From contig JAHLLQ010000001.1 in assembly GCA_020444065.1 (NCBI GenBank), positions 248,001 to 312,000 of the forward strand: DNA of 64,000 bases, in the 5' to 3' direction. Shown piece after piece: positions 34,013 through 44,192 of the stretch (within the stretch, counting starts at the first letter, position 1; each line of letters starts with the position of its first letter). The notes below the pieces were generated by a model, which was not told the origin of the DNA, did not search any database, and saw only the letters and a program-made list of their open reading frames with translations. The position numbers and the translations under genes are program-made. This DNA comes from a bacterium. GTDB taxonomy: Bacteria; Sumerlaeota; Sumerlaeia; SLMS01; JAHLLQ01.

Positions 34013-37000
34013 CTACTGGAAGACCCACTGGTTGCTCTTATTTGCGAGAGCCATGAGATCGACGGTAACGGTCGGGTGGTCGGGGTCATTGGTGGTGACA
34101 ACCAATTGTGCGTCGAGTTGGCCGAAGTCGGAAGGATTGCAGCGGAGCAAGACCGTGCGCTCCTCGTCGACGGCCATGGGATCGAGTGACGGCAGTTGGA
34201 TGATAGTGTAACTGGCCGCCGCGGCGCCGGTAACGGTGATTCCGTCGCCGGTGAATTGCAGTTCCTCGGACCCGGTGTTCTTGATCGTGAGCAGTTCCTG
34301 CTTCGTCGCGGAGTGCGTCATCGTGCCGTAGTCGATGCTGGTTGGGGTCACCTCGCATCTCGGAGCATTCAAGAGAGTTGATGTCTCGATCGTGTCGGGA
34401 ATCGGCTCCTGAAGGCCCACATTGTCAGAGGCACGCGTCGCGAATCCATACGTATGGCCAAGCTCGCCGGAATAACTGGCCGTCCCACCAAATACACGGC
34501 GACGCCAGAGATTGAGTTCGCCGCCGTCCTCTGACACATAGATATCGACGAAGGCGGCTCCCGATCCGGCCGGGCCATCGTCCATCGTCCATTCAAGTTC
34601 TACCGTGCTGCTGTTCGTTTCTCCAGGCAAAGCCGTCAGTCCGCTGTCAGGCGCCTGACTGTCGATGGTGTTCACCGTCAGGTTTGTCAGTATCGGATCG
34701 TTGAGATCGAAGACGATGTTCGCCTGGTTGAGTATTTGAGTTCCATCCGGCAGGTCCGGCAACGCATCGATCCGGAATCGGATGTAGCCCTCACCGGTTC
34801 CCTGCTCATCGTTTGGCGGAAGGAATCCCGCGAGAGGATCCTCGACCAACTCGCGCGTGTTGGGATCGATCGAACGCATCGCGAGAGTCATGATGCCCGA
34901 AACCTGATCGAAAGAGACCGCGACCTCGACTGGATTCGGATCGGTGCTGACGAGAGTCTGCGTTGTGAAGACCTGTGCGCTTGCCGGCAGAACGATCATC
35001 GCATCGTTGAACCCGATCTCCTCGATCTCCAGCGTGGACCAATCGAGCGCCGAGTCGATCTGATCAGTCACAATGACCTCTTGGGCCGAGGCTGTCGCCG
35101 ATGTCACATTTTCGAAATGCACCGTGTAGACGAGCGGCTCGTTGCCGGAGATGAACCCTTCGTCTCCGACGCCGGAGGGAGCCGATTTGTCGTTTGGATC
35201 GGCCGCCGAGATGACCTTGATCCTCTTGTTGTTAGGTTTCTTCTCGGGAAGTGGGCAGGTCACCGTATCGTTCTGCGTCAACCGCTTCCAGGTGTAGGTG
35301 TTATCCGGATCAGTCCCCATGATGAGGTTCTCCAGATGCAGGAAGGCACAGAAGTTGGCCTGCCACGTCTGGTAGCAGTCGTTGTTGACGATCCACTCAT
35401 CGGGACCGGCGTCATCGAGAGGCAATAACGTCGATTCGACGTAATTGTCAACAATGTACGAGTTCCCATTGGGCGAGGTGAGCATGACGGTCGTGTGGCC
35501 AATGCCAAGACCGTTCTTTGTAATACGTGTGACACTCCATCCATTGAGTGGATTGCCGGGAACAGAACCCTCCGTGTGCAACTTGGTGCGCAGATCATCC
35601 GCAGCACCCACGCATGCCGTGTTCCAGAACTTCATGAGGAAGTTGTTCTGATACCAGTGTTCCTGTGCAATGCGATAGGCTTCGCGGAGGGCCTCCAATT
35701 CATCCTCCGGGAAGTCGCAGAATTCATCCCTGTAGCTGTCGGACCGAGTCGGAGGACATGCCGGACAGAAAGCGGCGTCTAGAGATGGGGCAAGGTTGTA
35801 GATGGCCAATTGGAAGTCACCGTTGTTTGATGGCTTGATTGTGAAGGAGGAACTGCCTGTTTCTCCGGGGCGAAGCATTGGAAGGACAATCGGCCCCGCC
35901 ATCTGCATCCCATCGCTGTTTGTGACAATTGTTGGTGAGTAGTATCCCAGGCTTCCATAGGTGCCGTGTCCACCGAACGAGGAGTCCGGAGAGAGGCCAA
36001 ACGATGGCGGGATGTTTGCCAGGTAGATGACACCACCATAGGCGTTGGTATTTCCACGATTTCCGTAACGGAGTGTATAAGTCGCTTTTCGGCCTCGCCG
36101 GATCGTGTCTGGTCCGGATATATCGGTCCAGATATCTGCAGAGCCATCGCGCTGAACGATCACGGCATTCGCAAGCGCGTCCTGGCTTGTTTGTTTCTCG
36201 ATTCGCAAATCGTAGGCCCCCGGTGTCGCGCCGGCCAACGGGAACGTCGCTCTGAGGTGAGTCGAATCGAGCACCTCGACTGAAGTGGCTGCGACCTGTG
36301 CACCGCCGTGATCCAGTTTGCAGCCGATGCCCGATTCAAATCCGGCGCCTCGGATATCGAACGTTGTGTTGCCAAGATTTCCCGCGATGGACGGCGAACA
36401 TGCCTCCACGCCAAAGGGCAACGAGACGGCTGCGATGCTGTACTCATCGACGCCTATGGCGAGAGTCTCCGGATTCATCGTGATGAACCAGGTGGTGGGA
36501 TTTGCGCTGCTCGGCAGGAAGAGATCCGGCGACGACTCGCCCCACTCTGCGCTTGCGACTTCATAGGCAATCGACGACGGAATATCGTAGCGCGATGCGT
36601 AAAGCGCGGTCGTCGCATCTCCCAGTCGGGTCACGGAAACCTTCACATCGACTCCGCCGGGCACATCAACGCGGAACCACTCGCGGCGATCAACTTCGGT
36701 GAAGATGCTTTCGATTGCACTGCCATCGACAACGAGTGGCTGCAGGTCAACGTTTACAGGTGCAATCGAGAGCGCATTGTTATTAACCAGGTTCGCGCCC
36801 TCGAAGACGGTTGCGTGGCTGTTTGTGCGAACTCGCCAGTGGTATGCACCCGGGATGGCCGCAGGCATCAGGAAACTCATCATGCCCGATGTCGTCTTTC
36901 CGGGAGCGAGCGTCAGCCCCTCGCCGACTTGCGCTTCGCCAATCTCGACTCCTGGATCATCCGGATTCGTCGAATCGGAAACGCCCAGGAGATCGAACCA

Positions 37001-40000
37001 CGGCCCCGTCACAGGTTCCGAGCCCAGATTGGAGATCGTCCAGCGGAGTGTCGTTGTTGTACCGGCCACGACATCGGACGGTCCCATGATCGACGTCACA
37101 ACGAGATCCAGTGGGGATGGCGCCGTTTCGACGAACTCGATCGCTCCCATATCGGGGAACGTTCCGTCCAGCATCGCCGTGCCCGTGTTTGGAGTGCGCG
37201 GATCATCGTAGCGTGGGCTTCCGTAGAAATCGTGCTGAGTCGCCTCATCGCCTTCCGCGGCATCGATCATTGGGCTCACGTAGTACAAGCCGTAATCTCG
37301 CCTTGTAGCGTTCTTGTACTCCGGATCGACGGACACATTACCGTTGGTCCCGACAATGTCTTCCATTCCACTGAAGTTGATGCCCTGCGTGCTCCAAACG
37401 TTGGAGTAGCGCATATCGATTGGCGGCGAGCCACAGCACACCGCGAGGCCAACTTCGAGCGAATTGGAAATGATGCTGTTGTAGAGTTCGATCTTTCCAC
37501 CATGTGCCAGAACGCTGTGGCGGCAATCATCGATCGTGCAGTGCCGCGCGATAATGTCGCCGATTTGAGTTTGCAGTCCGCGCTCGCAATTTACGATCAG
37601 ACAATTCTCGAAGATTGCCGTGCCGCCCTGGATCATGACGGCATTGAAGAGTGAATCGAGAATCTCGCTATTGGAGACATTGATGAGAGCGTTGCCGTCG
37701 GATCGAATCGCGCCGGTGGAATCCCAGTTTCCAGTGGGCGAACCCGCGCCATAAGTAATCCGGACATGCTCAAGTGTGGCTGTGCCTCCATCGATGTGCA
37801 GCCAACGCCAGTCTCCCGGCGCAGGCGTTGTCGCATCGCCATCCTCGTTTGTGTCTCCACCAATAGAATCGTCCCGAATCGACGTGAACGTTATAGGATT
37901 CACGAGCGTACCGTTGGCGATCAGGTTTCCTCCACCCTGAACGACGATCTCGAGCATTGGATCGAACTTCACGATGGCCCCTTCGGCGATCTCCAGCGTG
38001 ATGCCGGACGGAACCGTGATAACCCCCGTGATGTGATGGATGGAGGTCTTACTCCAGAGTTCCGAGTCGGCCAGAATGCCGCTGTGCGTCGTACGCAGCC
38101 AACGGAGTTCGACATTTTCGTTCCTCAGGAACTGGCCGCCTGACTCAACAGTGATACCGACCCAATCGCCTGGAAGCGGACGGCTTGCGCCGCCATCCAG
38201 ATTCGAATCGCCGCCCGCCTCATCATCCTTGAGGGACGTGAAAATGATCTGCGCGCGCGAAGCTGCCGAGGCATCGAGGATCGCGCCGGACTCCACGGTG
38301 ATTCCCGAATCCTGAGTGAATTTCACGACCGCACCGCTCGCAAGAGTGACAACCGATCCCGTGGTCAGGTGCAGGTCTCCTTCAACACAATGGACCTTGT
38401 CCGCTGACCAGAACTCGTTGCCTGATATGCTGCCACTGTGCCACTCGAGTGAGTTATTGACCAACGCATTCATTGTGCTGTCGGTCACCCAGTGGCCTGA
38501 TGTGTCCCTGACGGATACCTGCAGTTGGTACACTCCATCGGCGACGCTTGTTGTATCCCACATCGCCGAGCCTTCGTCGGAGAATCCGCTGGCAACAGTG
38601 GTACTCCAACCCGTGCGATACGCCCGGAGTCGCGAACTGATACCCCAGCCTGTACCAAGGACTCTCCAGGTAATTTCTTCCGTATCGTGGAGCACCCAGT
38701 CGTTCGGCGCGGTCCACACAATGTATGGATCGGGAGAAAGGACGATCGAACCCTCCTCACCTGGATTCTGCCCGCCAGTGCCGCCGGAGACGTTCAACTG
38801 TGTTTCAGTGAAGTCTCCATCCTTTGAATAGGCCGCGATTCGGCCACCGGCACCGGCACCACACTGCCACTCCACATTTCCACCAATCGCGGTCACAAAA
38901 CCGCTTCCCGTCAGATTGGCGGCATTAAGAAGGACAGAACCGCCCGACCCGCCGGCGCAGTCGCCGGAGCCGGCAAGGCCGTTGGCCTCCACATTGCCGT
39001 CGATCGTGAGGGTCTCGCCTGTGGCGATCTCGATTGCTCCGCCGCCGTGGCCGCTCGGCGTTCCCTCATCTCCGGTTCCGCCGCCGGATCCCAAATCCAG
39101 CGGAATGTACATCGATCCGTAGGGAAGGCCGGGCACTCCAACACTACCGGCCCCGCCGTAGCCACCGTGGCCCGCGCCACCGCCGCCATTCCCATTTCCA
39201 AATCCACCACCGCCGGGACCGTAGCCGTTGGACTGGCGCGCAGGGCTTATGTATCCTTGTCCAGTCGCAGTAATGAGTGATGTCTCGTCGAGTTCGAAGT
39301 TCCGGGCTGTCAACTTGACGCCCTGACCGGCCCATTCATCATTCACGAGCGCCGTGCGGTTCTTGCCACGGGCAAGCACCGTCGAGCCGTTAATTATCCG
39401 TGTCTCATCGAGGACATCGAGCCAAGATCCGCCCGCCATCTCGAATTCCGATGCATTCTCAATTTGAGCAGACCACACCGTGAACTGCTCATCTTCCTCA
39501 AGGAAGAATCGGTGCGGGAAATACATCGCGAGGCCGGGCACGCTCTCGTCGACGAAGACGACGGTGCCCTGCTGGCCGTATCTACTCGGTGTCGGAGACG
39601 CCCCGCCACTCACGTCGGCGCCAGCGCTCCCGCTGTAGTTTGTGTTGTGATCGTAGTGGACGGCGATTCGCCCGCCGCCACCGCCTGGGGTAGTGGACCA
39701 GTTCGTATCTCCCCCCACGGCCTGCATCAGGCCGCTTCCCTTGATCGTGTCTGTCTCGACAAGAATCGAACCGCCCGCGCCGCCTGCACAATCCTGTGTG
39801 CCGCTGGCGCCATTGCAACTGACTGTTCCGTTCAGCGTGAGAGTGTTGACGACTTTGAGATAGACGGCGCCGCCGCCGTGGCCACTCGGAGTGCCCTCAT
39901 CACCGGCACCACCGCCGGAACCAAGATCCATCGGATAGAGCGGCGATCCATAGTGCAGTGCGACGGGCGTGCAATAGCCAAGCCCTCCGTCGCCACCGTA

Positions 40001-43000
40001 TGCGCCACCACCGCCGCCGCTTCCGACGCCGTTGCATCCGCCGCCAGGTCCATTGCCGACGGACTGTCTGCCTGGTGATGTATAGCCCTCACCGTCGGCA
40101 TTAATGGTGGCGCCGGCATCGATTGCGAAGTTGTAGGCAGTGATCTGAATGCCGGCTCCGGCCCAGACTCCGCCGACCATTGCCGTGCGGTTCTTCCCGT
40201 GTGCCAGGATCGTTGCGTTGCCTTCGACTGCGATGTCGCCGCGGGAGAGCTTCAGATGCGAACCACCGCTCATTTCAAAGGTCGCTTCGTTGTCGATCAG
40301 CATTTCACCCGCGGCAAATGTCTCATCTTCCTCCAGGAAGAATCGGTGCGCGACGTGCATACGACCGCCACTCAGAGTCTCATCGACGATAATAACGGTG
40401 CCTTCCTGGCCAACCCGCGCAGAAGAAAATCCGGGATCGACGGAGAATCCGTCGGTCTCGTCGTAACCGCTATTTGCACTGTAGTAGACCGCGATGCGGC
40501 CGCCGCCTCCCGAGGCCGTTCCCCACTCGGTTCCTCCGCCTTCCGCGCGGAACAGCCCAACGCCGTCGAGTTCATCTGATTCAACCCAGATCGAGCCGCC
40601 GGAACCACCCGCGCAATCGCCAGCGCCGCTGCCGCCATTCATCGTTACAAGGCCGTCGTTCGTGAAGAGACTATCAACGAGGATGTGAATTGCCCCACCG
40701 CCATGGCCGGTCGGCACACCTTCATCACCATTTCCGCCTGCAGAACCAAGATCCGTCGGTTCCATCGGCGAACCGTAATGCAGGACGGACAACCCGAAGT
40801 GATTTACGCCGCCATCCCCACCATACGCTCCGCCGCCGCCTGAGTTGCCTGCGCCGGCAAGTCCGCCACCCGGCCCATTGCCCGCCGTGTTGTATGCCGG
40901 CCGGGCGGTGTAGCCTTGAGCATCGCCAGTGATTGTCGAACCGGCTCCGATTGTCAGATCTGCGGCAGAGATTGTGACGCCTTCGCCGATCCACTGGTCC
41001 AAGACCTGGGCCGATGCGTTCTTGCTGCGGCACCAGATTGTCGAATTCTCGTTGAGCAAGAGTGGTCCTCCCGCCACGAGTTGCGAGCCGCCGCCCATTT
41101 CAAACATCGCTTCGTTGTCGATGATGATTTCTTGTGCGCCGAACACTTCATCGGGTTCCAAGAGGTAGCGATGTGCGAAGTGCATTCTATCGCCCGTTAC
41201 CGATTGGTCGACAACGATGACGGTTCCTTCTTGTCCGACATGCAAGTCAGAGTAACCTGGATCGACTGAGAATCCTGCCTTCTCATCGTATCCGACATTC
41301 ACCTCGTAATAGACTGCGATGCGGCCCCCTGCGCCGGAACCAGTCCCCCATTGCGTGCCACCACCAACTGCCTGGAAGAGGCCAGAGCCGTTCAGGCGGT
41401 TCGTCTCGACGAGAATCGAGCCGCCCGCACCGCCCGCGCAGTCTCCCGAAGCACCCGCACCGTTTGCGGTGACGAGACCGTCGTTCCTCAGAAGTTCTTC
41501 AACGGAAAGGTAGATTGCTCCGCCGCCGTGTCCGACGGGACTGCCTTCATCACCAGCACCGCCGGCAGATCCCAGATCCAACGGCAATGTGGGCGAGCCG
41601 TAATGCGCGGCTATTGCGCTGGCATTGCTGATGCCGCCATCGCCCCCGTAGGCACCGCCGCCACCGCCGTTGCCGACTCCATTTGCCCCGCCACCGGGGC
41701 CGTTACCCTGCGTCTGGCGCCCGAGACAGGTGTAACCCTGGCCATCGGCAGTAATCGTCGAACTTGTGGCCACGGTGAGATTCCGGGCCGAAATCACCAC
41801 GCCCTCGCCTTGCCAGCTTTCATCGACCATTCCTGTCCGGTTCTTGCCACGACACAGGACGGTGGCTTCGGTGATCTCCATGTCGGTATTTGCCTTCAGG
41901 TGTCCGCCGCCGCCGATCTCGATCAGTGCATCGTTATCCATCAGGATCTGTTCGGCGACAAATTCCTCACCTTCCTCGAGCAAGTACCGATGGGCGAAGT
42001 GCACGGCATCGCCGGGCACAGACTGATCGACGACGATGACGGTGCCTTCCTGTCCGAGGTGGCTGCTTGCCGCACCGGGGAGCACATTGAAGCCATCCCA
42101 TTCATCAAAACCTTCGTTGGTTGTGTAGTAGACGGCAATGCGTCCGCCTGCTCCGGAGGCCGTGGTCCACTGGGCGCTTCCACCGATGGATTGGAAGACG
42201 CCTGTGCCATCGAGTCTGGACGTCTCGACAAGAATAGCCCCGCCGGACCCGCCGGCACAGTCACCCGAAGCGCCCGCGCCGTTTGCGCTGATGGTTCCAT
42301 TGTTCAGCAGGAGATCGCCGACGGTCAGACGGATTGCACCGCCACCATGACCGACAGGGCTTCCTTCATCCCCGGTTCCACCGGCCGATCCCAGGTCAAG
42401 CGGCATCGTCGGAGAGCCGTAGTGCGATGCGACCACGCCGTAGTGGCTGCTGCCGCCATCGCCGCCAAAAGCGCCACCACCACCGCCGTTTCCAACGCCG
42501 TTGGTGCCGCCCCCCGGGCCATTGCCATTCGATTGCATACCGGGGCATGTGTATCCCTGGCCATCGGCCGTGATGATTCCCGTATCGCCAACAGTCAGAT
42601 TGTTCGCGGAGATCACAACTCCCTCGCCTTGCCACAGTCCGCCCACCTGGGCCGTTCGGTTCTTTCCGCGGCAAAGGATGGTTCCGGCGCCGTTCACAGT
42701 GAGATCGCCCGTCGCCGTGAGTTGGGCACCACCACCGACTTCGACAAGAGCGCTATTATCGATCACGATTTCTTGCGCGGTGAACGTCTCATCCTCTTCC
42801 AGAAGATAGCGATGTGCGAAGTGCACCGCGTTTCCAGTCACCGATTCGTCGATGACGATCACGGTTCCTTCCTGGCCATTGATGCCACTTGAACTTCCAG
42901 GCTGAACGGAGAAGCCGGCAGCCTCGTCGAATCCTTCATTCGAGGTGTAGTAGACCGCGATTCGTCCTCCGGCGCCGGATGCGGAGCCCCATTGGGTGCC

Positions 43001-43771
43001 GCCACCCTCCGCCTGGAAGATGCCCGAGCCGCCAAGACGTGCCGCCTCGACCCAGATCGATCCGCCAGCCCCACCCGCGCAATCGCCCGATGCGCTGTTT
43101 CCATTGGCCGTGATCGTTCCGTTGTTTGTGAGCAGATCGTGGACAACGAGATGCATCGCCCCGCCGCCGTGACCGGTGGGGGCTCCTTCATCTCCCGTTC
43201 CACCGGCCGAGCCAAGATCGATTGGTTCGAGAGGCGATCCGTAGTGTGCCGCCACAACCCCGGGAAGAGTCCTGCCCCCATCGCCGCCGTAGGCACCACC
43301 GCCACCAGTGTTTCCGTATCCGTTAGCTCCGCCGCCGGGGCCGTTGCCGTCCGACTGCATTCCGGGGCAGGTGTAGCCTTGCCCGTCCGCAGAGAGGAAA
43401 CCCCCGGTCGCGACGTCCAGTGTATTCGCCTCGATCGAGACACCCTGGCCGACCCAGAGCCCGCCAACTTGCGCGCTGGCGTCTTTGCCTTGCAGGACAA
43501 CGGCACTATCGGTCGCGATACTGAATTCGCCCGCGACGGTAACAGAGGAACCGCCGGCGATTCGAAGCGTTGCACTGTTCGTCACCGTCAGGCTGTCGTA
43601 GGCGTATGTGCCCTCCGGCCAGTCCTGGTCGGCATCAACGACCAGGTCTCCCTGAGCAGAGGCACCTGCGAAGCTGATAACGATGAGAGTTGCAGTCAAA
43701 GCGAGTACACGACTGACAAAGCAAGACGTGAACGCCCCACGGCGCCCAGAGAAAGTCTCGGAAGACATCAT
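34013..43771 (-). CDS. Giant exported multidomain repeat protein (3,252 residues)
   Basis: The start ATG at 43771 follows AGGAGG by five bases and begins a long signal peptide (cut near ASAQGD). Domains in order: six ~274-residue Gly-rich units (about 45-1680); a short Ig-like linker; a right-handed beta-helix region with imperfect repeats (about 1780-2200); a CARDB-like domain (LVVTSIMGPSDVVAGTTTTL); a pre-peptidase-C-like segment; an IPT-like domain; a DUF11-like domain; a Cys/His/Asp-containing module (about 2690-2807); a DPNDK-type surface repeat; a fibronectin-like part; and a final Hydin/choice-of-anchor-D domain (PTSIDYGTMTHSATKQ). There is no LPXTG, PEP-CTERM or type IX tail. Likely an adhesin or extracellular matrix protein; role and anchoring are inferred. 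The gene is transcribed alone. Confidence 0.85.
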   Translation of the reverse strand: MMSSETFSGRRGAFTSCFVSRVLALTATLIVISFAGASAQGDLVVDADQDWPEGTYAYDSLTVTNSATLRIAGGSSVTVAGEFSIATDSAVVLQGKDASAQVGGLWVGQGVSIEANTLDVATGGFLSADGQGYTCPGMQSDGNGPGGGANGYGNTGGGGAYGGDGGRTLPGVVAAHYGSPLEPIDLGSAGGTGDEGAPTGHGGGAMHLVVHDLLTNNGTITANGNSASGDCAGGAGGSIWVEAARLGGSGIFQAEGGGTQWGSASGAGGRIAVYYTSNEGFDEAAGFSVQPGSSSGINGQEGTVIVIDESVTGNAVHFAHRYLLEEDETFTAQEIVIDNSALVEVGGGAQLTATGDLTVNGAGTILCRGKNRTAQVGGLWQGEGVVISANNLTVGDTGIITADGQGYTCPGMQSNGNGPGGGTNGVGNGGGGGAFGGDGGSSHYGVVASHYGSPTMPLDLGSAGGTGDEGSPVGHGGGAIRLTVGDLLLNNGTISANGAGASGDCAGGSGGAILVETSRLDGTGVFQSIGGSAQWTTASGAGGRIAVYYTTNEGFDEWDGFNVLPGAASSHLGQEGTVIVVDQSVPGDAVHFAHRYLLEEGEEFVAEQILMDNDALIEIGGGGHLKANTDMEITEATVLCRGKNRTGMVDESWQGEGVVISARNLTVATSSTITADGQGYTCLGRQTQGNGPGGGANGVGNGGGGGAYGGDGGISNASAIAAHYGSPTLPLDLGSAGGAGDEGSPVGHGGGAIYLSVEELLRNDGLVTANGAGASGDCAGGAGGSILVETNRLNGSGLFQAVGGGTQWGTGSGAGGRIAVYYEVNVGYDEKAGFSVDPGYSDLHVGQEGTVIVVDQSVTGDRMHFAHRYLLEPDEVFGAQEIIIDNEAMFEMGGGSQLVAGGPLLLNENSTIWCRSKNASAQVLDQWIGEGVTISAADLTIGAGSTITGDAQGYTARPAYNTAGNGPGGGLAGAGNSGGGGAYGGDGGVNHFGLSVLHYGSPMEPTDLGSAGGNGDEGVPTGHGGGAIHILVDSLFTNDGLVTMNGGSGAGDCAGGSGGSIWVESDELDGVGLFRAEGGGTEWGTASGGGGRIAVYYSANSGYDETDGFSVDPGFSSARVGQEGTVIIVDETLSGGRMHVAHRFFLEEDETFAAGEMLIDNEATFEMSGGSHLKLSRGDIAVEGNATILAHGKNRTAMVGGVWAGAGIQITAYNFAIDAGATINADGEGYTSPGRQSVGNGPGGGCNGVGSGGGGGAYGGDGGLGYCTPVALHYGSPLYPMDLGSGGGAGDEGTPSGHGGGAVYLKVVNTLTLNGTVSCNGASGTQDCAGGAGGSILVETDTIKGSGLMQAVGGDTNWSTTPGGGGGRIAVHYDHNTNYSGSAGADVSGGASPTPSRYGQQGTVVFVDESVPGLAMYFPHRFFLEEDEQFTVWSAQIENASEFEMAGGSWLDVLDETRIINGSTVLARGKNRTALVNDEWAGQGVKLTARNFELDETSLITATGQGYISPARQSNGYGPGGGGFGNGNGGGGAGHGGYGGAGSVGVPGLPYGSMYIPLDLGSGGGTGDEGTPSGHGGGAIEIATGETLTIDGNVEANGLAGSGDCAGGSGGSVLLNAANLTGSGFVTAIGGNVEWQCGAGAGGRIAAYSKDGDFTETQLNVSGGTGGQNPGEEGSIVLSPDPYIVWTAPNDWVLHDTEEITWRVLGTGWGISSRLRAYRTGWSTTVASGFSDEGSAMWDTTSVADGVYQLQVSVRDTSGHWVTDSTMNALVNNSLEWHSGSISGNEFWSADKVHCVEGDLHLTTGSVVTLASGAVVKFTQDSGITVESGAILDASAASRAQIIFTSLKDDEAGGDSNLDGGASRPLPGDWVGITVESGGQFLRNENVELRWLRTTHSGILADSELWSKTSIHHITGVITVPSGITLEIAEGAIVKFDPMLEIVVQGGGNLIANGTLVNPITFTSIRDDSIGGDTNEDGDATTPAPGDWRWLHIDGGTATLEHVRITYGAGSPTGNWDSTGAIRSDGNALINVSNSEILDSLFNAVMIQGGTAIFENCLIVNCERGLQTQIGDIIARHCTIDDCRHSVLAHGGKIELYNSIISNSLEVGLAVCCGSPPIDMRYSNVWSTQGINFSGMEDIVGTNGNVSVDPEYKNATRRDYGLYYVSPMIDAAEGDEATQHDFYGSPRYDDPRTPNTGTAMLDGTFPDMGAIEFVETAPSPLDLVVTSIMGPSDVVAGTTTTLRWTISNLGSEPVTGPWFDLLGVSDSTNPDDPGVEIGEAQVGEGLTLAPGKTTSGMMSFLMPAAIPGAYHWRVRTNSHATVFEGANLVNNNALSIAPVNVDLQPLVVDGSAIESIFTEVDRREWFRVDVPGGVDVKVSVTRLGDATTALYASRYDIPSSIAYEVASAEWGESSPDLFLPSSANPTTWFITMNPETLAIGVDEYSIAAVSLPFGVEACSPSIAGNLGNTTFDIRGAGFESGIGCKLDHGGAQVAATSVEVLDSTHLRATFPLAGATPGAYDLRIEKQTSQDALANAVIVQRDGSADIWTDISGPDTIRRGRKATYTLRYGNRGNTNAYGGVIYLANIPPSFGLSPDSSFGGHGTYGSLGYYSPTIVTNSDGMQMAGPIVLPMLRPGETGSSSFTIKPSNNGDFQLAIYNLAPSLDAAFCPACPPTRSDSYRDEFCDFPEDELEALREAYRIAQEHWYQNNFLMKFWNTACVGAADDLRTKLHTEGSVPGNPLNGWSVTRITKNGLGIGHTTVMLTSPNGNSYIVDNYVESTLLPLDDAGPDEWIVNNDCYQTWQANFCAFLHLENLIMGTDPDNTYTWKRLTQNDTVTCPLPEKKPNNKRIKVISAADPNDKSAPSGVGDEGFISGNEPLVYTVHFENVTSATASAQEVIVTDQIDSALDWSTLEIEEIGFNDAMIVLPASAQVFTTQTLVSTDPNPVEVAVSFDQVSGIMTLAMRSIDPNTRELVEDPLAGFLPPNDEQGTGEGYIRFRIDALPDLPDGTQILNQANIVFDLNDPILTNLTVNTIDSQAPDSGLTALPGETNSSTVELEWTMDDGPAGSGAAFVDIYVSEDGGELNLWRRRVFGGTASYSGELGHTYGFATRASDNVGLQEPIPDTIETSTLLNAPRCEVTPTSIDYGTMTHSATKQELLTIKNTGSEELQFTGDGITVTGAAAASYTIIQLPSLDPMAVDEERTVLLRCNPSDFGQLDAQLVVTTNDPDHPTVTVDLMALANKSNQWVFQ
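38740..43640 (-). repeat. Six tandem ~820-830-bp coding repeats inside the giant gene
   Basis: The anchor motif G-x-GY-x(4-6)-Q/Y...GNGPGGG recurs six times at about 43370, 42548, 41729, 40908, 40079 and 39248, giving a period of 819-831 bases (~274 residues). Each unit reads: HFAHRYLLEEDE, a short beta-strand series, RGKNRTA-V, GEGVxIxA, the Gly-rich GGGGAYGGDGG, DLGSAGGTGDEGxPxGHGGGA, GDCAGGAGGSI-VE, and GAGGRIAVYY. Units differ at many positions, so the duplication is old. The GGSI...GGGGRIAIYY pattern occurs in many bacterial surface proteins. Confidence 0.85.
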
Positions 43772-44192
43772 TATTCCCTCCTGTTTGGACAACAAAAGAC
43801 GCTCGCCGACACAGCTACTCCACAAGCAGCGCATCCCCGCAGGTATGCGAGTTGGGGTGCAAGCGGACCCAATCCCATTTGGCGAGACTTGGTTTCTTCT
43901 ATCCGATGGACCGATCGGTGTCCATCGGATTTATTTTGTGGATGCAGAGTCCAGAAACCCGCAAGTGATGGTTTGTGAGGGTTTGATGTCACGGCTCAGT
44001 GGAACATGTTCATATATGCAGCAAAGAAGCCAGATTCAGCGCGAAGCAGGTCCGACGACGGGAACCCGCTCCAGTTTCGATCATTGCGGCCCGCTTCACA
44101 ATGGAGCGATCATCTCGCGATGATCGGGCTGATACAAATCGGTGTGACTTCCCCAGCCTTCAATCCAACCTCAAGCGAGTTTGATCGAATCA
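43772..44192. other. Non-coding gap with a long dyad upstream of the giant gene
   Basis: About 420 bases without a gene. The main feature is the inverted repeat ATCCGATGGAC (43901-43911) and GTCCATCGGAT (43920-43930), a perfect 11-bp stem whose loop contains the palindrome CCGATCGG. On the plus strand it is followed by TTATTTTG. It could be an operator or leader hairpin for the divergent giant gene and ribokinase gene, or a terminator-like barrier. No clear promoter boxes. Confidence 0.4.

Follow-up and report, generated by a model that had tools for sequence, protein, structure and literature searches.

An independent domain of about 140 amino acids with conserved Cys, His and Asp (or Asn) residues is embedded in a giant surface protein encoded in the window, as we call the whole analysed DNA stretch of 64,000 nucleotides. 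On balance we favour the interpretation that this module is a surface-displayed thiol hydrolase using Cys2741, His2780 and Asp2796 on a papain-like core, probably a peptidase working in cis or in trans. Together with its homologues it makes up a small, previously unnamed family, and the recurrence of the three residues in these distant relatives makes a papain- or transglutaminase-like enzyme likely. If the module is active, an enzyme within a giant surface protein, beside a self-crosslinking domain, has been missed by the current profile libraries, and a new thiol-enzyme family would be present in fibrillar adhesin-like proteins of little-studied phyla. The features on which the analysis is based are the following.

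34013..43834, minus strand: giant protein of 3273 aa, from the ORF reading and domain scans, several domain names being given by inspection
35765..36148, minus strand: DUF11-like domain, about residues 2563-2690, a homologous segment N-terminal to the module
35309..35728, minus strand: Cys-His-Asp module, about residues 2703-2842, without a known family, from homologue alignment and models
34664..35200, minus strand: DPNDK/DUF7619 domain, about residues 2879-3057, CnaA-like (Pfam PF24595, E=2.4e-21), with a predicted intramolecular isopeptide bond (PMC12617251)
35612..35614, minus strand: Cys2741, proposed nucleophile, Cys in 6/7 members and Ser in L126
35495..35497, minus strand: His2780, proposed general base, present in 7/7 members
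35447..35449, minus strand: Asp2796, proposed third triad residue, Asp in 6/7 members and Asn in L072
35186..35188, minus strand: Lys2883 of DPNDK, predicted isopeptide lysine, assigned by homology
35063-35065, minus strand: Asp2924, predicted isopeptide partner, assigned by homology
34727-34729, minus strand: Asn3036, predicted isopeptide partner, assigned by homology

The minus-strand open reading frame passes through the module region without a stop. At the N-terminus of the protein a hydrophobic segment resembles, by inspection, a signal peptide, and it is followed by Gly-rich repeats, six in number and each about 275 aa long. These repeats (GNGPGGG ... GHGGGA; window 39000-43400, minus strand), which start at residues 163, 437, 710, 985, 1260 and 1537, make up the N-terminal half of the protein. 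The other domains upstream of the module are a beta-helix-like region and CARDB, PPC-like, IPT-like and DUF11-like domains, while the approximately 430 residues C-terminal to it hold DUF7619, FN3-like and HYDIN/ASPM-type domains. The Cys-bearing motif WNTACVGAADDL covers residues 2737-2748 (35591-35626), the His2780 motif GIGHTTVML residues 2777-2785 (35480-35506) and the Asp2796 motif YIVDNYV residues 2793-2799 (35438-35458). The codons of the three residues lie exactly where an earlier note on this DNA had located them, and the same note had correctly positioned the module between a DUF11-like and a DPNDK domain, which in our analysis cover about residues 2563-2690 and begin at residue 2879, respectively.

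The first relatives were found via a GTDB contig scan whose query combined the module with the conserved DPNDK domain as an anchor. Three module homologues were obtained in this way, L045 (Chloroflexi), L043 (Anaerolineae) and L072 (Geobacter sp. UBA698), with phmmer E-values of 8e-21, 9e-15 and 2e-7, respectively, and whole-genome profile searches added three modules from Armatimonadota (L126, L129 and L130). The seven members are distributed over four phyla: the window module belongs to Sumerlaeota, two are from Chloroflexota, one is from Geobacter and three are from Armatimonadota. Only the known members turned up in the profile searches of 400 Chloroflexota, 251 Armatimonadota and 247 Geobacter-phylum genomes. 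A single-sequence search with the module gave no real relative in 40 same-phylum genomes and 99 further relatives, no module was found by searches run without a positive control in 273 Planctomycetota and 268 Verrucomicrobiota genomes, and there was neither a relative among viral contigs and plasmids nor a second copy in the source genome. The module is rare and scattered among the genomes surveyed, a distribution which suggests horizontal transfer or loss. Weak single-sequence matches (e.g. L042) were attributed to chance, their alignments missing the triad, and the PHROGs matches were also at chance level. A relation to DUF2686, hinted at by a weak match of one member (E=0.025), was rejected, as hmmsearch and hhalign against E. 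coli YjfZ show no relation.

Identity between lineages in the seven-module alignment is 17-32%, and when one sequence per lineage was taken (window, L045, L043, L072 and L129) 10 of the 134 gap-free columns were invariant in these five divergent members (18-32% identity), namely Cys2741, Trp2766, His2780, Ser2787, Pro2788, Tyr2793, Pro2805, Gly2810, Pro2843 and Pro2861. The conservation pattern of the Cys and the His exceeds chance: two positions named in advance would both fall into the invariant set with a chance of about 0.5%, a figure that ignores the above-average conservation of Cys and His in general. Cys2741 is the sole conserved cysteine inside the domain, Cys2860 being part of the linker. 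The Asp2796 column reads D, D, D, D, N across the five lineages (N in L072), and such D/N alternation occurs as in other papain-like triads. The Cys-His spacing is 33-43 and the His-Asp spacing 16-20 across the members, with values of 39 and 16 in the window. Lack of conservation in homologues had been named in the earlier note as grounds for giving up the idea; in the seven sequences which form the whole depth of the alignment the Cys is kept in six, the His in all seven and the Asp in six, with Asn in the remaining one, so the idea stands in this respect.

In the Armatimonadota member L126 the module Cys is replaced by Ser. Taken with the Asp to Asn change in L072, this speaks for a domain that descends from papain-like enzymes but is not catalytic, which would be losing its active site and serve as a structural spacer or bind peptides; inactive transglutaminase domains are known from large surface proteins and polymorphic toxins (PMC3482391). 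We nevertheless judge this decidedly unlikely, since Cys and His are among so few invariant columns in five lineages and the selection data point the other way. The dN/dS of the module is 0.10 in L129 versus L130, the closest Cys-bearing pair, which is the lowest of five regions compared, and it is 0.28-0.30 in pairs with the Cys-less L126, although the numbers involved are small and DUF7619 also shows raised values on the L126 branch. In the L129/L130 pair the module is under purifying selection.

Conservation of Cys, His and Asp/Asn in this order, as in the broad papain-like superfamily (clan CA), was found, and the module would most likely have a core of this superfamily with transglutaminase-like order and spacing. 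Pfam and NCBIfam models, those of NlpC/P60 and C39 among them, gave no match to the module, and a PDB sequence search with it gave matches at chance level. Transglut_core (PF01841) had no match at E up to 10 in the module members that were scanned one by one, and the transglutaminase-type HxW is not conserved; BTLCP/LapG (PF06035) had no profile match in the members scanned, and the residues flanking the module Cys, Ala and Val in the window, are acidic in no member, as opposed to the calcium-site residues of BTLCP. The conserved Gln preceding the catalytic Cys in papain family C1 is absent from the 5/5 and 4/5 columns. The invariant Gln of adhesin thioester domains is missing too, and the N-terminal half is helical and not mainly beta. 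The module is consequently not assigned to Transglut_core, BTLCP, C1, NlpC/P60 or thioester domains, whose defining features it lacks.

AlphaFold models of the window module (pLDDT 70.5, pTM 0.73) and of the L129 module (pLDDT 70.5, pTM 0.71), both built on the seven-row alignment, consist of two helices followed by five strands. In both, the predicted order is helix, helix with the Cys, strand, strand starting at the His, strand ending at the Asp, and two further strands, which at this modest model confidence fits a papain/transglutaminase-type core. The likeness to transglutaminases and papain that had been noticed earlier is therefore retained as regards the order of elements (Cys helix, His opening a strand, Asp closing the following one) and not as regards a family match; the comparison with transglutaminase, C39 and NlpC folds that had been proposed with it gave nothing significant by sequence or by fold search. 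Foldseek against the PDB with both models returned no significant match (all E-values > 0.1), and a viral fold library search with the module likewise returned nothing significant. Rank 1 for the window model was Aichivirus 2A, an insignificant match that belongs with the papain-like ones, and apart from it neither NlpC/P60 nor C39 occurs among the Foldseek matches listed. The weak matches include five entries of the Marasmius oreades agglutinin MOA (probability up to 0.21, TMq 0.37-0.38, E about 2), with the highest TMq among the matches listed, and other papain-like proteins, i.e. USP15, USP4, USP18 and a Josephin-type clippase. Many unrelated folds appear in the top lists as well, and for this reason the papain-like matches are a lead and not a proof.

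The missing significant structural match, together with the predicted position of the Cys inside a long helix and not at its N-terminus in both models (confidence nearby is low, with block means of 53-85, and it is low again in the C-terminal third), would be in line with a different alpha/beta fold, where Cys and His are kept for metal binding, as a buried pair or for folding. The order, the spacing and the D/N alternation suit a triad, however, and several papain-like entries are present among the weak fold matches; we thus consider a different fold unlikely.

Two known systems come nearest to a papain-like thiol hydrolase of this kind. MOA possesses a Cys215-His257-Glu274 triad with spacings of 42 and 17 (PMC8244254); its cysteine-protease domain lies inside a binding protein of several domains, an arrangement like that proposed for the module, with its 39 and 16, but MOA is a metal-dependent fungal lectin without a sequence match to the module. 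The BTLCP proteases LapG and DvhG (PF06035) share the C-H-D triad, a similar order of elements and a function linked to giant adhesins (PMC13090378). They are separate proteases acting in trans, however, and their Cys has acidic flanks (in DvhG Asp316 and Glu318 flank Cys317 and form a calcium site, PMC13090378), in contrast to Ala and Val around Cys2741.

In the mechanism that we propose for the thiol hydrolase, Cys2741 would attack the carbonyl, His2780 would act as the base and Asp2796 would orient His2780, the module being displayed on the large secreted surface protein between the DUF11-like and the rigid DUF7619 domains. Peptide-bond hydrolysis would be the most likely reaction, and its target may be the host protein, cut in cis, or neighbouring proteins in trans.

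A transglutaminase-like crosslinker would employ the same residues in another way: the side chain of a Gln would be bound by the Cys as an acyl-enzyme and then linked to a Lys, either in a neighbour or in the protein itself. The C-H-D order and a strand between the Cys helix and the His are the family pattern of transglutaminase-type enzymes, and both are seen in the module, as is the His-Asp spacing of 16; the module also adjoins the Lys-containing DPNDK. Beside the failure of Transglut_core to match, the chemistry of the neighbouring domains argues against it, as intramolecular isopeptide bonds are predicted, or have been shown, to arise autocatalytically in DUF7619 and DUF11 domains (PMC12617251), the prediction for DUF7619 involving Lys, Asp and Asn (PMC12617251). 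In our six-sequence DUF7619 alignment the residues at the predicted bond positions, Lys2883, Asp2924 and Asn3036, are invariant. Crosslinking beside the module would need no enzyme if DUF7619 forms its own bond as predicted (PMC12617251), and isopeptide crosslinking by the module, which had been suggested in the earlier note, becomes less likely. Furthermore L045 is without the DPNDK Lys and its triad is complete, and the putative enzyme thus does not depend on this Lys. Altogether we find a crosslinker very unlikely.

By the alignments the Lys is not universal in DUF7619. In L126 the module Cys (here Ser) is missing as well as the DPNDK Lys (DANDV), and L045 lacks only the Lys (DPNDI), with the full triad retained. 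The double loss in L126 had brought up the DPNDK lysine as a possible target of the module, a possibility that was dropped because L045 has lost the Lys and kept the triad.

The place of the module is fixed. All module-bearing proteins show the order DUF11-like domain, module, DUF7619, with a slot of about 175-200 aa, where DUF7619 and the CLIPPER domain DUF11, as predicted or known intramolecular isopeptide domains, flank the module as a frame and the module is a separate alpha/beta domain. The parts further upstream differ: Gly-rich repeats and a beta-helix in the window, a beta-helix in L043, a PD40 propeller in L045 and a laminin-G-like domain in L072. The C-terminus of L045 has a hydrophobic stretch and then basic residues, by inspection consistent with a membrane anchor. 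Some DUF7619 proteins that carry other inserts have the DUF11-like domain too. No conserved column is present in the 300 residues preceding DPNDK when 54 DUF7619 proteins of many phyla are compared; an RHS-associated core was recognised there in 14 (NCBIfam) and a caspase domain in 3 (Pfam), other contents being helical or beta-propeller-like. Measured from the DUF11-like left edge, the inserts range from 137 to over 1200 aa, weaker left-edge matches being partial and approximate. These differing contents make the module one of several kinds of insert. It is possible, and we propose it only tentatively, that bacterial surface proteins generally use the DUF11-like/DPNDK (DUF7619) pair as a frame on which exchangeable cargo is displayed, and that the module is the first representative of a new family of enzyme cargo; enzymes (the module and caspase-like domains), RHS cores with variable domains after them, and helical domains would then be swapped into one place across unrelated phyla. 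The variable cargo position before DPNDK is open to a systematic survey.

Since other DUF7619 proteins have caspase domains in this slot, or RHS cores followed by a variable domain, and since polymorphic toxins are known to include papain-like domains with toxin and processing roles (PMC3482391), the module might also be a toxin-like effector cargo of a polymorphic surface system, acting on other cells. Processing domains of papain-like and caspase-like type, known from large surface proteins and polymorphic toxins, are thiol peptidases placed inside giant secreted proteins, as the module is proposed to be, and the Tox-PL-2 motif of Zhang et al. 2012 (C, NxxH, DN; PMC3482391) is similar to the C, H, DN of the window module. 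Nevertheless, the papain-fold toxin families give no Pfam match, and polymorphic effector features are absent: the module is internal, being followed by DUF7619 and further domains and by no recognised toxin. The surrounding genes are GDSL lipase-like, PfkB kinase, Memo-like and aldolase genes, among which no operon partner or candidate immunity gene was recognised, and no neighbour gene common to the loci of the homologues was seen. An effector role is in our view highly improbable, and a peptidase displayed on the surface remains the reading that we prefer.

Several arrangements of the slot were recorded in other DUF7619 proteins. An internal RHS core and a variable domain, followed by DPN[DE]K/DUF7619, are found in L033, L067, L071, L075, L078 and L090, and also in L097, L101, L108, L121 and L122; these cores sit inside the proteins, whereas in classical RHS toxins they come at the protein end. 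A caspase-like domain (SGHGG ... DSCHS) stands directly before DPNDK in Verrucomicrobiota surface proteins (L052:7116-8015, L055:7116-8015 and L059:7116-8015). The source genome itself encodes two more giant DUF7619 proteins, L030 and L031 (2896 and 2138 aa), in which the slot before DPNEK has different, unannotated content.
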